A stretch of DNA of 64,000 bases from Geoglobus acetivorans (lineage in GTDB: Archaea; Halobacteriota; Archaeoglobi; Archaeoglobales; Archaeoglobaceae): assembly GCF_000789255.1 (NCBI RefSeq), contig NZ_CP009552.1, positions 744,001 through 808,000 on the forward strand, written 5' to 3'. Under the pieces are notes generated by a model. It saw nothing but the letters and a program-made list of their open reading frames with translations. It was not told where the DNA came from and ran no database searches. Made by a program: the position numbers and the translations under genes. How positions within the stretch are numbered: position 1 is the stretch's first letter; the number at the start of each line of letters is the position of its first letter. This document shows positions 4,092-10,045 of this stretch, in pieces.

Positions 4092-4190
4092 ATGTCGGGA
4101 GATAAGGAAAAGAAATGGGAATCCAGACCCATGTATGTTGAGGTTGAGAAGGCAGCTAAAGAAAAATCAAAGAAAACAGTAGACTTATGA
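4092..4190 (+). CDS. 32-residue charged micro-protein overlapping a membrane-protein gene
   Basis: A complete ORF (M-SGDKEKKWESRPMYVEVEK and on) from ATG 4092 to TGA 4188-4190. GGAGGTGATGT lies just upstream, one of the best Shine-Dalgarno sequences in the element. It is Lys/Glu-rich and probably disordered or helical. Its last 35 bases overlap the end of the membrane protein on the other strand. The same layout is repeated at 5272-5379, whose product also starts M-(S/G)-G-D-K. The two overlaps suggest a functional pair, perhaps a regulator or antitoxin of the membrane protein (inference). Confidence 0.55.
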   Translation: MSGDKEKKWESRPMYVEVEKAAKEKSKKTVDL

Positions 4191-4575
4191 TGGAGAATAG
4201 AAACGTCCAGATTGATATCTTCAGGAATCTGGCAGATCTGGATATGTTGTGCAAATTGAACTCCTCGCAATCTCCGAGCGTTGCAACGATGGTGCGCTTT
4301 AGTTCGTCAACGTCTTCTGACTTCTTTACTTCATTGAGAACCTTGTTTATCATCAACCGTCTGTATTTCCGCACGGTTAAGGTGAGGGTTGCAAAGAGAG
4401 CTGAGACAGATGCAATAATTACGGGTAATAAGTATCCAGCGTTGCTACTTAAACCGGCGAGTATTCCAGCCGACGCCAAAATCACACTTGCTTTCTGTTC
4501 GATCTCCCGTTTATCATCCATACTTTCTTCAAATACTCTCCACGAAACATCAAGCATTACATCTTCGACGCTCAT
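4156..4575 (-). CDS. PycTM/SLATT-like three-TM membrane protein, paralogue of 5341-5790
   Basis: 139 residues. Near the N-terminus is EESMDDKREIEQKASVILAS, very like the entry to the first membrane helix of Pycsar-type TM effectors (…KA..IL..NG). Two membrane helices follow (about 28-45 and 47-66), then a cytoplasmic helical segment (74-110) with an NLHNISRSARFLK motif, then a C-terminal membrane helix (115-138). The same order is found in the paralogue. ATG 4575 has the shared promoter 26 bp upstream. No nucleotide-cyclase gene is seen in the window, so an antiviral role is only a hypothesis. Confidence 0.6.
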   Translation of the reverse strand: MSVEDVMLDVSWRVFEESMDDKREIEQKASVILASAGILAGLSSNAGYLLPVIIASVSALFATLTLTVRKYRRLMINKVLNEVKKSEDVDELKRTIVATLGDCEEFNLHNISRSARFLKISIWTFLFSIISLLFSLIFL

Positions 4576-5271: not shown

Positions 5272-5379
5272 ATGGGTGGTGATAAGAAAGAAGAATCTGC
5301 TAATGTTGGTAGAATGTCTCAGGCTGTAAAAAAGATGTTCTCAAGTGAGGATAAAGACAAAAAACGAGACGGCCAGTAA
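5272..5379 (+). CDS. 35-residue charged micro-protein overlapping a membrane-protein gene
   Basis: A complete ORF from ATG 5272 to TAA 5377-5379. It begins MGGDKKEE, has a helix MSQAVKKMFSS and a Lys/Asp-rich end. It resembles the micro-protein at 4092 in its first residues, size, charge and position: its last 39 bases overlap the end of the paralogous membrane protein on the other strand. GGGGGCATGCT lies upstream as a weak ribosome site. Confidence 0.5.
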   Translation: MGGDKKEESANVGRMSQAVKKMFSSEDKDKKRDGQ

Positions 5380-5790
5380 TATGACACCAATAACAAATGA
5401 ATATATACCATACTGGAGCAACCCTGCAGACCTATTTATTTGTTTAGTGTTGAATGATTCATTATCTGCAAGATCTTCAAACAGCTCTCTTTTAAAAGCT
5501 TCAATAGTATCCTGCTCATCAAAAAACTTCAATGCTCTCTTTGGCTTTAGAGTGTGGTACTCTCTGATCTTCAATGACAATGTACAGAGTAAAATGGATG
5601 CCAGAAGGAATAAAATCGCCAAGAGTGTAAGAGGAATCCACAACACCGAATATCCATTAACAACTAACCCAAGTATAACACCATTGGCTGCCAGAATAAA
5701 GCTTGCTTTCGTCTCTATTTCACGTTTGTCTTCCATACTTTCTTCATGTCTTCTCCATGCAATTTCGAGTAAAATATCATCCCATTCCAT
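5341..5790 (-). CDS. PycTM/SLATT-like three-TM membrane protein, paralogue of 4156-4575
   Basis: 149 residues from ATG 5790. The N-terminal EESMEDKREIETKASFILAA motif leads into a short helix (ILAANGVILGLVV), then a second membrane helix (about 50-72). A cytoplasmic segment follows (EQDTIEAFKRELFEDLADNE, then FNTKQINRSAGLL), then a third membrane helix at the C-terminus (125-148). This order matches Pycsar TM effectors (formerly DUF5706), whose hallmark is a K-A-(G/S)-x-I-L-x-x-N-G entry motif. Such proteins depolarise the membrane when triggered. The paralogue at 4156 has lost the Asn-Gly. The shared promoter lies 25 bp upstream. Confidence 0.6.
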   Translation of the reverse strand: MEWDDILLEIAWRRHEESMEDKREIETKASFILAANGVILGLVVNGYSVLWIPLTLLAILFLLASILLCTLSLKIREYHTLKPKRALKFFDEQDTIEAFKRELFEDLADNESFNTKQINRSAGLLQYGIYSFVIGVILLAVSFFVFILT

Positions 5791-6447: not shown

Positions 6448-6711
6448 ATGAAGAAGAGAACTTCGCTTTACATCGACGCTGAACTTCTCGAAAAAGCTAA
6501 ACGAAAATTCAATCTGTCTCAGTTACTGGAATGGGCTATAATCAAGGCGTTAAATGGGGAACTGGAAGAATTGAGTCCGGCCTTAAGACCCTGTCCCGAA
6601 GGGGTCCGCGGGTTCAAATCCCGCCCCCCGCATAGCTTTTCTGTACTGGAGCTGTTTGATGAGTTTGTGAAGCATTCCAGATTTGCAAGTCAGCACTCAT
6701 TTCTCACCTGA
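6448..6711 (+). CDS. Ribbon-helix-helix/antitoxin-like gene fused to chromosome through the attachment site
   Basis: The first ~40 residues form a compact RHH start: TSLYIDAELLEKAKRKFN for strand and helix A, LSQLLEWAIIKALNGELEEL for helix B. From residue 44 the frame reads straight through the tRNA-Leu fragment and into host DNA, ending 15 bases inside the convergent methyltransferase gene. The C-terminus therefore changed on integration. The original gene on the free element probably ended differently. A TATA box (TTTTATATAAA, 6418-6428) lies about 25 bp upstream, consistent with a leaderless ATG. Confidence 0.6.
   Translation: MKKRTSLYIDAELLEKAKRKFNLSQLLEWAIIKALNGELEELSPALRPCPEGVRGFKSRPPHSFSVLELFDEFVKHSRFASQHSFLT
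6582..6632 (+). other. Attachment site: 3' half of tRNA-Leu(UAA)
   Basis: The sequence runs from an anticodon loop CTTAAGA (anticodon TAA, 6584-6586) through a long class II variable arm and a T arm (GCGGG TTCAAAT CCCGC, 6608-6624). It ends with a 3' acceptor strand CCCCCGC and A73 at 6632, the leucine discriminator. There is no D arm and no 5' acceptor strand, and the bases 5' of the loop pair poorly with CCCTG. This is the duplicated end left when an element integrates into a tRNA gene near the anticodon loop. The intact gene should lie left of the window on the + strand. Confidence 0.85.
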
Positions 6712-7806: not shown

Positions 7807-9411
7807 TCACCTCTTCACATCCATCCTTCTGCATTTCCCTGCTCGCCTGAGGGCCTCCTCCTTCTCTTCAGCGCTGACAAAGTGTATGTGCAGCGGATGC
7901 TGTCTGCTGAGTTCTTTTCTGACATCCTCCTCGATTCTCCTCCTCTCCTCAGCATCGGGAACCCTGCTCGTTATGACAAGCAGGTCAACATCGCAGGCCC
8001 TGTGCAGTTCTCCTCTCGCCACACTGCCAACCAGATAGACCTCCGCATCTTCAAATTTCTGGACAATGCCGCCCACCGCCCGGTCTATCCACGATTCCCA
8101 GTTTCGTATATTCTCCTCCCACCTTTTGAAGAGGACATCAACGTAATGTCCCAGCGTCCTGCCGGTAACAGACCTGTAGCCAGCTTCAATCATGAACGAG
8201 CCGGCAATCAGCGCTGCAAGGACCTCAAGGTTCTGGGGGGAATAGGCCGCCATCCGGTAAAGCAGAACAGCAAGGGCCACCGAGGTGAGCAAAACTCCGG
8301 CAATAGCAATGGCGGGATGTGCCCCGGTCTCCCTCCTCAGCCTGTACGCTGCAAGGTTAACTGCCAGAAAAATTATCAGGAATCCTCCGCTTCCCGCAAT
8401 GGATATTGACTCCAGACTTGCGGTGTTCGCGAGAACTGCAGAAAGCAGCCCCACCAGGATCAGTCCCTCAAAAGCCTCTTTCCATACCTTCCTCTCCATC
8501 GCCTCCGGTAGCTGCCCGTATTTTGCAACCATGTAACTCGCCCTTGCAGTCCCGTAGAGGGTGGCGTTTATTGCCGAGCCTGTCGAGGCGAGGGCGGCAA
8601 ACGTAACGAGCCAGAAACCCAGGCTCCCGAGGGCTGGTTCCGCAACAGCGGACAGCGCATAGTCCCTTTCCCTCACTATGGTCTCCAGAGGCAGCGTTCC
8701 AACAGTAACGAGTGCTATCATGAAATAGACAAAAATCACAACCAGGACAGCAGAAAAGAACACCTTTGGCAGTATTTTCGGATTCTCGACGTCCTGGGCT
8801 GTGTTGGCTATCAGCTCAAATCCCTCGTATGCGAGAAAGATTATCATTCCTCCGGCAACAACCGTGATTCCGTCCGGCCACTCTGCAGGTGAAAGCCTCT
8901 GCCAGTCCATGAACATCAGTCCGGAGCCTGCAACAAGGAGCAGAACTGCAAGCTTGAACCCAACGAGCAGATCCTCCGCTTCACCACTCACGACCGCACC
9001 GTAGGCGTTGATCAGCACAAAGGCGGCTATTACAGCAGTTATGAAGATGTGCTTTAAAACCACGCTTTCCGAGAATATGCTGGATGCGTAGCTGCCGAAA
9101 GCGTAGGCGTAAAGGGAGATCATGACAACATAGCTCGAAAGAAGGAGAACGTTCAGTCCGCCTGAGAGCACGCCCGTGCCGTAGGCCTTTACCAGGTATT
9201 CGATCGTGCCACCTCTGCTCGGATACCTGACCGAGAGCTTCGCATAGGAGTATGCCGTCGTCAGTGCCACGATACCTGCAAGAAGAAACGCGAGCGGGGC
9301 GGCACCCCTGGATAGCTCAACGCTCAGACCCAGAACTGCGAATATCCCTCCCCCTATCATCCCTCCAACACCTATGCTGAAGGCCTCCCTGAACCCTATC
9401 CTGTCCTTCAT
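7807..9411 (-). CDS. APC-family amino-acid permease fused to a nucleotidyltransferase-like domain
   Basis: 534 residues from ATG 9411, behind GGGTGAGAGTGAG; a TTG at 9435 is less likely. Residues ~1-420 form about 12 membrane helices of an APC transporter. The start RIGFREAFSIGVGGMIGGGI is the family's conserved helix 1, and AYEGFELIANTAQDVENP also fits. After a linker (YVDVLFKRWEENIRNWESWI), residues ~455-534 form a minimal nucleotidyltransferase fold: VYLVGSVARGELHRACDVDLL matches the GS-x-A-R-G…(S)D-x-D-L motif, with Cys in place of Ser. The second domain should be cytoplasmic and may sense or regulate transport (inference). The substrate is unknown. Confidence 0.85.
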   Translation of the reverse strand: MKDRIGFREAFSIGVGGMIGGGIFAVLGLSVELSRGAAPLAFLLAGIVALTTAYSYAKLSVRYPSRGGTIEYLVKAYGTGVLSGGLNVLLLSSYVVMISLYAYAFGSYASSIFSESVVLKHIFITAVIAAFVLINAYGAVVSGEAEDLLVGFKLAVLLLVAGSGLMFMDWQRLSPAEWPDGITVVAGGMIIFLAYEGFELIANTAQDVENPKILPKVFFSAVLVVIFVYFMIALVTVGTLPLETIVRERDYALSAVAEPALGSLGFWLVTFAALASTGSAINATLYGTARASYMVAKYGQLPEAMERKVWKEAFEGLILVGLLSAVLANTASLESISIAGSGGFLIIFLAVNLAAYRLRRETGAHPAIAIAGVLLTSVALAVLLYRMAAYSPQNLEVLAALIAGSFMIEAGYRSVTGRTLGHYVDVLFKRWEENIRNWESWIDRAVGGIVQKFEDAEVYLVGSVARGELHRACDVDLLVITSRVPDAEERRRIEEDVRKELSRQHPLHIHFVSAEEKEEALRRAGKCRRMDVKR

Positions 9412-9460
9412 CTCACTCTCACCCTCGGCATACAATCGACCCTATCCTGACTTCATGCAA

Positions 9461-9493: not shown

Positions 9494-10045
9494 ATGGTCG
9501 ATTATAAAATCAAAATCGAGAACGTTGTTGCTTCTACCCAGATTGGGGAGAATATTGATCTTAACAAAATAGCAAGAGAAGTGAAAGATGCCGAATACAA
9601 ACCAAAGCAGTTTCCGGGGCTTGTTTTGAGGATAAAGGAGCCAAAAGCCGCGGCTCTCGTTTTCAGGAGCGGCAAGGTGGTATGCACTGGGAGCAAGAGT
9701 GTTGAGGATGCGAGAAGGGCGGTAAAGCAGGTCGTGAAAATAATAGGAAGTTTCGGAATTCCCGTGTTCGAGGACCCGGACGTCAAGGTTCAGAATATCG
9801 TCGCCTCGGCAGACCTTGGTGTCGATCTAAACCTCAACGCCATCGCAATCGGTCTGGGACTTGAAAATATCGAATACGAGCCTGAGCAGTTTCCGGGGCT
9901 TGTTTACAGGCTGAGAGACCCGCGTGTCGTCGTCCTCATATTCGGTTCAGGAAAAATGGTTGTTACCGGGGGGAAAAACCCCGAAGATGCAAGAAAGGCA
10001 GTTGAGAGGATTGCCGAGGAGCTTACCAGCTTAGGACTGATGTAG
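9494..10045 (+). CDS. tbp: TATA-box-binding protein
   Basis: 183 residues, the usual archaeal length, made of two direct repeats (1-92 and 93-183). Each contains the (V/I)xNIVAS / VENVVAST strand, the P-x-Q-FPGLV(L/Y)R core and the (V)FxSGK(V/M)VxTG stirrup region. It binds the promoter TATA box and recruits TFB and RNA polymerase. Like other archaeal TBPs it has no N-terminal extension. It overlaps the convergent Agl23-like gene by 15 bp. Confidence 0.97.

Follow-up and report, generated by a model that had tools for sequence, protein, structure and literature searches.

A minimal nucleotidyltransferase domain fused to an ApcT-like permease in Geoglobus acetivorans: a candidate cis regulatory module whose catalytic motif is kept in archaeal-type copies and lost in bacterial-type copies

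The C-terminus of APC transporters lies on the cytosolic side of the membrane. For ApcT of the APC superfamily (MJ0609; PDB 3gi8/3gi9/3gia), the solved chain, 444 residues in the deposited, tagged form, stops where the permease does and is without a nucleotidyltransferase domain. For KimA, the available part of PMC10284832 describes c-di-AMP binding by a cytosolic domain of PPAT-like fold, which holds the transporter trapped in an inward-occluded state. For MntA, a minimal nucleotidyltransferase (MNT), the available part of PMC7641770 describes D39 and D41 of the GSX10DXD motif, together with D71, as holding two Mg ions, and AMP transfer as being abolished by changing GS or the Asp residues. 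Here, a gene of Geoglobus acetivorans in which an ApcT-like permease is followed by an MNT domain is described. It lies in the window, that is, the whole 64,000-nucleotide stretch that was analysed (positions 744,001 to 808,000 of contig NZ_CP009552.1). Such a fusion was not found in the open-access literature searched, a statement that extends to that literature and not to absence from print, and the available part of PMC2701414 makes no mention of one. What is new here is that the catalytic motif is kept in archaeal-type copies of the fused domain and lost, with the fold kept, in bacterial-type copies.

An earlier note, made from the sequence alone, had described one uninterrupted frame joining an APC transporter to a nucleotidyltransferase domain, and this was borne out by a 534-aa protein in which Pfam recognises both parts (Table 1). 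An alternative TTG start is possible at 9435; the majority of relatives align from the ATG. Residues 5-388 match AA_permease_2 (PF13520; E 4.7e-31, 108.6 bits against a cut-off of 27), the sequence match to ApcT MJ0609 covers residues 4-423 (E 7.3e-67), and the LeuT-type fold of the permease is indicated by comparison of the model with 3gia (Z 52.4, rmsd 2.2 over 424 residues). Twelve transmembrane segments were assigned by homology to ApcT (PDB 3gia) rather than by a topology predictor. Lys153 of the window protein aligns with Lys158 of ApcT, a residue with a role in that transporter. The window protein is predicted to transport amino acids as a member of the ApcT branch of the APC superfamily, and it is probably proton-coupled.

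Table 1. Features of the fused gene, in window coordinates
Feature	Position	Strand	Basis or remark
Complete ORF, APC permease + MNT domain	7807..9411	minus	ATG, 534 aa, without internal stop
ApcT-like (AA_permease_2) transporter part, residues 1-416	8164..9411	minus	Pfam, ApcT alignment, structure match
Lys153, pairs with ApcT Lys158	8953..8955	minus	Alignment (position hand-counted); invariant in 23/23 fused proteins
Linker helix, residues 423-436	8104..8145	minus	Structure model (residues 422-425 pLDDT <50) and conservation
Minimal nucleotidyltransferase (MNT) domain, residues 438-524	7840..8100	minus	Pfam, model, PDB 1ylq match
Catalytic motif GS-X10-DXD, residues 462-476 (G462-S463-X10-D474-V-D476)	7984..8028	minus	Exact in window; invariant in 23/23 rows
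His508, inferred third metal ligand position	7888..7890	minus	Equivalence to MntA D71 inferred from strand position

Within the C-terminal part, residues 448-519 match NTP_transf_2 (PF01909; E 1.9e-12, 47.8 bits against a cut-off of 21), and the best PDB sequence match of the fused domain in a profile search is 1ylq (E 3e-6). The G-S...D-x-D motif that had been pointed out from the sequence is present at residues 462-476 in the exact form GS-X10-DXD. The structure model of the window protein, built on an alignment of 23 rows (mean pLDDT 81.9, pTM 0.81), places after the permease helices a helix at 423-436, a second helix at 438-452, strands at 457-461 and 475-481, a helix at 487-500, a strand at 507-513 and a final helix at 514-524; a structure search with the whole model returned only transporters among the 50 matches listed. 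The linker helix is among the best-kept stretches of the C-terminal region in the archaeal and bacterial branches alike, with D425 present in 98%, L428 in 97% and E432 in 92% of the 88 fused rows; the window protein itself has F428. As to the surrounding DNA, a TATA-binding protein gene (window 9494-10045, plus strand; PF00352, E 5.8e-68) is transcribed away from the fused gene, the ORF at 6448-6711 (plus strand) matches the CcdA antitoxin family weakly, though over the cut-off (24.0 bits against 22.4), and two small membrane-type ORFs at 4156-4575 and 5341-5790 (both minus strand) resemble paralogues, with a similar stretch near the N-terminus.

The protein was found to have a match in 302 of 392 genomes of the same phylum, with up to three candidates per genome scored in most. 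Matches reaching residue 513 or beyond came from at least 26 genomes, all in the window's own family, which is represented by 55 genomes. A search for the same architecture elsewhere had been advised in the earlier note, and it recurs in these genomes as well as in Thermoproteota and in bacteria. Both parts occupy one open frame at 25 of the 26 fused same-family loci, several of which are single-contig assemblies, and this argues against an error of sequencing or assembly and against two genes having been merged into one. The exception, L049, carries an in-frame TGA inside the permease part, away from the junction, and nothing was found in favour of an artefact, the probability of which we regard as negligible. 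Separate genes with a frameshift at the junction, which the same note had named as the case against a true fusion, were not found at any of the 26 loci. The 23 complete fused proteins of a single family can be aligned over their whole length, more than chance would give; the fused copy at L051 has a disturbed N-terminus, and that at L048 (497 aa) has a shortened domain, yet retains GS, DXD and the DIHF strand. Between the window protein and L033 the C-terminal domain is 52% and the permease 81% identical. Unfused relatives from Archaeoglobaceae and other families of the phylum (L053-L069) share 49-59% permease identity with the match ending at about residue 420, and a separate copy of the domain was not found by tblastn with the window domain at the 17 unfused-permease loci (L063 being a fragment). 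At L049 (6272-10081, G024) and L052 (2797-6002, G208), the gene immediately upstream, abutting or overlapping the fused one, encodes a longer APC permease whose C-terminus looks UspA-like by eye, so that two APC permeases with different cytosolic domains stand in tandem.

Beyond the family, a contig search with the single window protein as query gave no match. A search of genome contigs with a profile of the fused protein returned 278 relatives, and the best 80 of the 278 were studied; all 80 match to residue 486 or beyond, which is not a frequency, since ranking by score favours full-length matches. The archaeal taxon labels among these best 80 of 278 include Archaeoglobales, Desulfurococcales, Acidilobaceae, Pyrodictiaceae and Hydrothermarchaeota, and the bacterial labels include Aquificota, Thermodesulfobacteriota, WOR-3, Thermotogota and the strain Thermodesulfatator autotrophicus S606 (L187). 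The labels are those of MAG records, some of them likely mis-binned; L124, labelled WOR-3, falls beside Geoglobus and was counted as archaeal-type. When further genome sets were searched, counting only matches at E 1e-60 or better, a single-frame fused copy was found in 27 of 121 Aquificota genomes (the phylum of L184), with pieces in two more, in 6 of 200 Thermoproteota genomes (the phylum of L156) and in 1 of 148 genomes of the phylum of L187; in 10 further genomes of that phylum the match goes no further than residue 425. The lineages named here are known as thermophiles.

The relationships of the fused proteins were examined with a tree of the permease part comprising 106 rows (88 fused, 2 outgroup, and 16 unfused relatives without any sequence past the permease), in which the 88 fused rows form one side of a single branch (SH-aLRT 100). 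In a second tree, to which six domain-less bacterial rows and seven Aquificota rows were added and from which 13 near-copies were removed, all 82 fused rows again form one clade without an intruder (SH-aLRT 87). Both are quick searches without bootstrap and contain some long branches. These trees point to a single origin, in which an ApcT-branch permease acquired the MNT domain at its C-terminus. The bacterial-type rows nest among archaeal-type rows in the permease-part tree, which suggests that the fused gene moved from archaea to bacteria.

For comparison of the catalytic motif, the term bacterial-type was applied to 23 rows that make up exactly one bacterial-labelled clade of the permease tree, so that the grouping is independent of the motif, and the other 65 fused rows were termed archaeal-type. 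The motif can be read in 64 of the latter, L049 being cut by its own stop before the motif region. G[SG] and DXD occur together in 63 of these 64 (strict GS in 57; exception L146), at a spacing of 10 in 62 of the 63, and by single positions G462 and D476 are present in all 64 and D474 in 63, with Ser at position 463 in 58 rows and Gly in 6. Conversely, neither G[SG] nor DXD is present in any of the 23 bacterial-type rows, where G462 survives in 7, D476 in 4 and D474 in none, and the G[SG]-DXD pattern is likewise found in none of 20 Aquificota loci, some of which are the same genes as tree rows. DXD is commonly replaced by K-L-H with Lys at 508 in the Thermodesulfobacteriota group and by H-I-N with His at 508 in Aquificota. 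One change from live to dead motif is needed on the tree, and in the second tree all 29 rows with a dead motif fall into one clade (SH-aLRT 95). The Cys that the earlier note had remarked on before the first catalytic Asp is indeed there, in a column that is variable (H 32, N 15, G 8, C 3, S 2, D 2, Q 1 and T 1 among the 64 archaeal-type rows), and Cys473 therefore carries no signal and was dropped as a meaningful substitution.

Nucleotidyltransferases act as switches in nitrogen metabolism, as in GlnE and GlnD, and by analogy the archaeal domain could be an active enzyme that turns transport on or off by AMPylating either the transporter itself or a partner, the bacterial branch having lost the activity. 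The near-complete retention of the motif in archaeal-type rows, including the shortened domain of the 497-aa L048 protein, is in keeping with this, and the available part of PMC7641770 has the same motif needed by MntA for AMP transfer. A motif kept whole exceeds the needs of simple binding, and could mean real AMP transfer. However, the domain persists in bacterial-type copies in which the motif is found in 0 of 23, and at the position taken to be equivalent to MntA D71, namely 508 on the third strand, the window protein and 24 other archaeal-type rows have His rather than Asp. The 64 readable archaeal-type rows divide there into 38 Asp, 25 His and one Arg, with 8 changes on the tree; some stand-alone MNTs seem by eye to have Asn at the third-ligand position. 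His does not preclude metal binding, and the window copy could be catalytically active or inactive. AMPylation as the main role of the archaeal domain seems to us rather doubtful. The pair of alternatives offered by the earlier note, nucleotide sensing or protein modification, remains a fair one, with loss of the motif in bacteria favouring binding or regulation as what the two branches have in common and its retention in 63 of 64 rows keeping catalysis a possibility in the archaeal branch.

Whether the bacterial C-termini are the same domain was examined by profile and structure comparison. An HMM of the archaeal-type rows finds 22 of the 23 bacterial C-termini at E 1.8e-8 or better (database size 177,635), L195 being missed (E 9.7), and comparison of the archaeal-type with the bacterial-type profile gives a probability of 99.7 (E 3.1e-26). 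The bacterial profile and model were made from 21 of the 23 rows, omitting a near-copy (L176) and the most diverged row (L195). The resulting domain model (pLDDT 88) matches 2rff (Z 10.3, rmsd 5.9) and 1ylq (Z 9.5, rmsd 2.7 over 89 residues) in VIA-align, the top rows of which are nucleotidyltransferases, including polymerase beta and MntA structures. Foldseek gave no match under E 0.001 (best 0.015), with MntA, 1ylq and HI0073 among its top rows; given this weak result, assignment of the bacterial fold rests on the VIA-align Z scores and the profile comparison. Among four bacterial relatives put through Pfam, NTP_transf_2 is unlisted in L188, L184 and L187 and scores 15.8 bits in L175, against a cut-off of 21. 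On these comparisons the bacterial domain is a pseudo-nucleotidyltransferase, with the fold retained and the motif lost.

Selection on the two parts was estimated by Nei-Gojobori dN/dS in 23 pairs, in which sequences are shared and several dS values exceed 1, so that the ratios are only a rough guide. The C-terminal domain gave values of 0.049 to 0.335 in 17 of the 23 pairs, six giving no value; for the permease, 22 pairs gave values, which ran from 0.012 to 0.252. As far as this rough guide goes, the C-terminal domain appears to be under purifying selection in both branches and to evolve faster than the permease. That faster evolution, with the domain ratio above that of the permease in 15 of the 17 comparable pairs, would fit a tail that is only structural or stabilising, for instance dimer-forming or thermostabilising, and binds no ligand. 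The strong drift of the Aquificota domains and the failure of the HMM to find L195 would also fit such a tail, as would the lack of a docking signature: residues that mark fused from unfused permeases are not enriched at cytosolic positions (3 of 10, against 112 of 424 positions overall, the loops having been delimited on the model by eye), and hence no docking surface is seen. The active-site residues of the archaeal-type rows are nearly invariant, though, which a pure scaffold would not need, and a merely structural role is considered improbable.

Neighbouring genes were compared, and no widely shared partner emerged, the commonest cluster being present at 9 of 41 loci and 6 of 24 fused loci and none across the wider set; regulation in cis is therefore the simplest reading. 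Shared neighbours were confined to local groups: in four of seven Aquificota loci (L181, L184, L191 and L192) a gene just upstream in the same direction resembles a P-type ATPase, which is what we take its DKTGT stretch to indicate. Among stand-alone proteins, the phylum search gave its highest scores to small MNTs, for example L102 and L103, which line up by eye with the fused domain in the N-terminal helix, the GS and DXD motif and the HPFEFH strand, and L103 adjoins a HEPN gene (PF05168, E 5.1e-35). We infer that the fused domain may have been captured from a HEPN/MNT pair. A reverse-strand ORF at L111 (4564-5178, 204 aa) has a HEPN-like N-terminus seemingly joined to an MNT domain.

This kinship raises the question of whether the fused MNT could serve as an antitoxin, tethered to the membrane, against a free HEPN toxin that it neutralises. 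Apart from the HEPN neighbour of L103, small upstream ORFs adjoin several other stand-alone relatives, and the window's genome holds one full-length HEPN (L238) beside which neither a PF01909 match nor a recognisable MNT was found. However, Pfam detects no HEPN among the five window ORFs around the gene, none of the HEPN genes of the window's genome falls within the window, no neighbour is conserved at the 24 fused loci, and AMPylation of a toxin would be beyond the dead bacterial copies. We regard an antitoxin role as very improbable. The full-length HEPN itself lies at 1992-2381 of its locus (G000:C1, about 246491-246880), with transposase-like ORFs upstream as judged by eye.

The reading preferred here is that the domain is a cis regulatory module, in which nucleotide binding through GS-X10-DXD would tune ApcT-type amino-acid transport in archaea, a proposal for which confidence and doubt are about equal. 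The archaeal domain would bind a nucleotide, probably Mg-ATP, through this motif, its bound or free state would be relayed through the conserved linker after TM12, and the relayed state would tune the transport cycle. Nucleotide binding, gating, the direction of the effect and the transport substrate are all points that we infer. Against the proposal count the lack of a docking surface, a motif kept more completely in archaea than simple binding would call for, and the drift of the Aquificota domains and of L195. Archaeal copies would bind nucleotide and possibly transfer AMP. Bacterial copies would have a non-catalytic role: with metal-dependent catalysis gone, their site would serve another purpose, for instance to bind a ligand without metal or to support the structure. 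Retention of the domain without catalytic residues in the bacterial copies suggests a built-in regulator and not only an enzyme. A bolder and rather unlikely variant is that the domain of thermophilic archaea sets transport activity by AMPylating either the transporter or a partner bound to it and that, after transfer to bacteria, the acidic metal site was rebuilt with basic or amide residues (mostly K-x-H plus K in one group and H-x-N plus H in the other) as a ligand sensor without metal or catalysis; if true, a single transporter would show a natural progression from enzyme to sensor. As it stands, the change from enzyme to pseudoenzyme maps to one branch inside one transporter family, where live and dead versions can be compared directly, and Pfam can overlook a C-terminal domain on the amino-acid permeases of Aquificota and Thermodesulfobacteriota, as in the four tested.

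With regard to known systems, the window protein resembles ApcT in its permease part, with 33-34% identity, the same fold and the pairing of Lys153 with Lys158, and differs in what follows it. The longer APC permease of the same genome (L002, 732 aa) is alike in superfamily and in the position of its added cytosolic domain, whereas that domain is a different one, presumably UspA-like from the look of the sequence in permeases of this type, and the permease part is only 28% identical. MntA-type MNTs of HEPN/MNT pairs (PF01909; PDB 1ylq AF0614, 2rff and 5yep/7bxo) belong to the same domain family and share the exact GS-X10-DXD of the window copy; unlike them, the window domain is fused to a transporter, has His at the inferred third ligand and has no adjoining HEPN, so that the gene is not part of an adjacent HEPN/MNT (type VII) toxin-antitoxin pair, and the motif is lost in the bacterial branch of the fused family. 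KimA, of the KUP family within the APC superfamily, likewise combines an APC-fold transporter with a C-terminal cytosolic domain of nucleotidyltransferase-like fold, which in the available part of PMC10284832 binds a nucleotide and controls transport. There, the fold is PPAT-like and not MNT, potassium is transported and not amino acids, and the ligand is known to be c-di-AMP; the window domain is MNT-type by Pfam and sequence profile, and not PPAT-like. For regulation in cis, KimA is the nearest working precedent, and the fusion described here, if it works in this way, would add a second type of nucleotidyltransferase-like cytosolic domain on APC transporters beside the PPAT-like domain of KimA.
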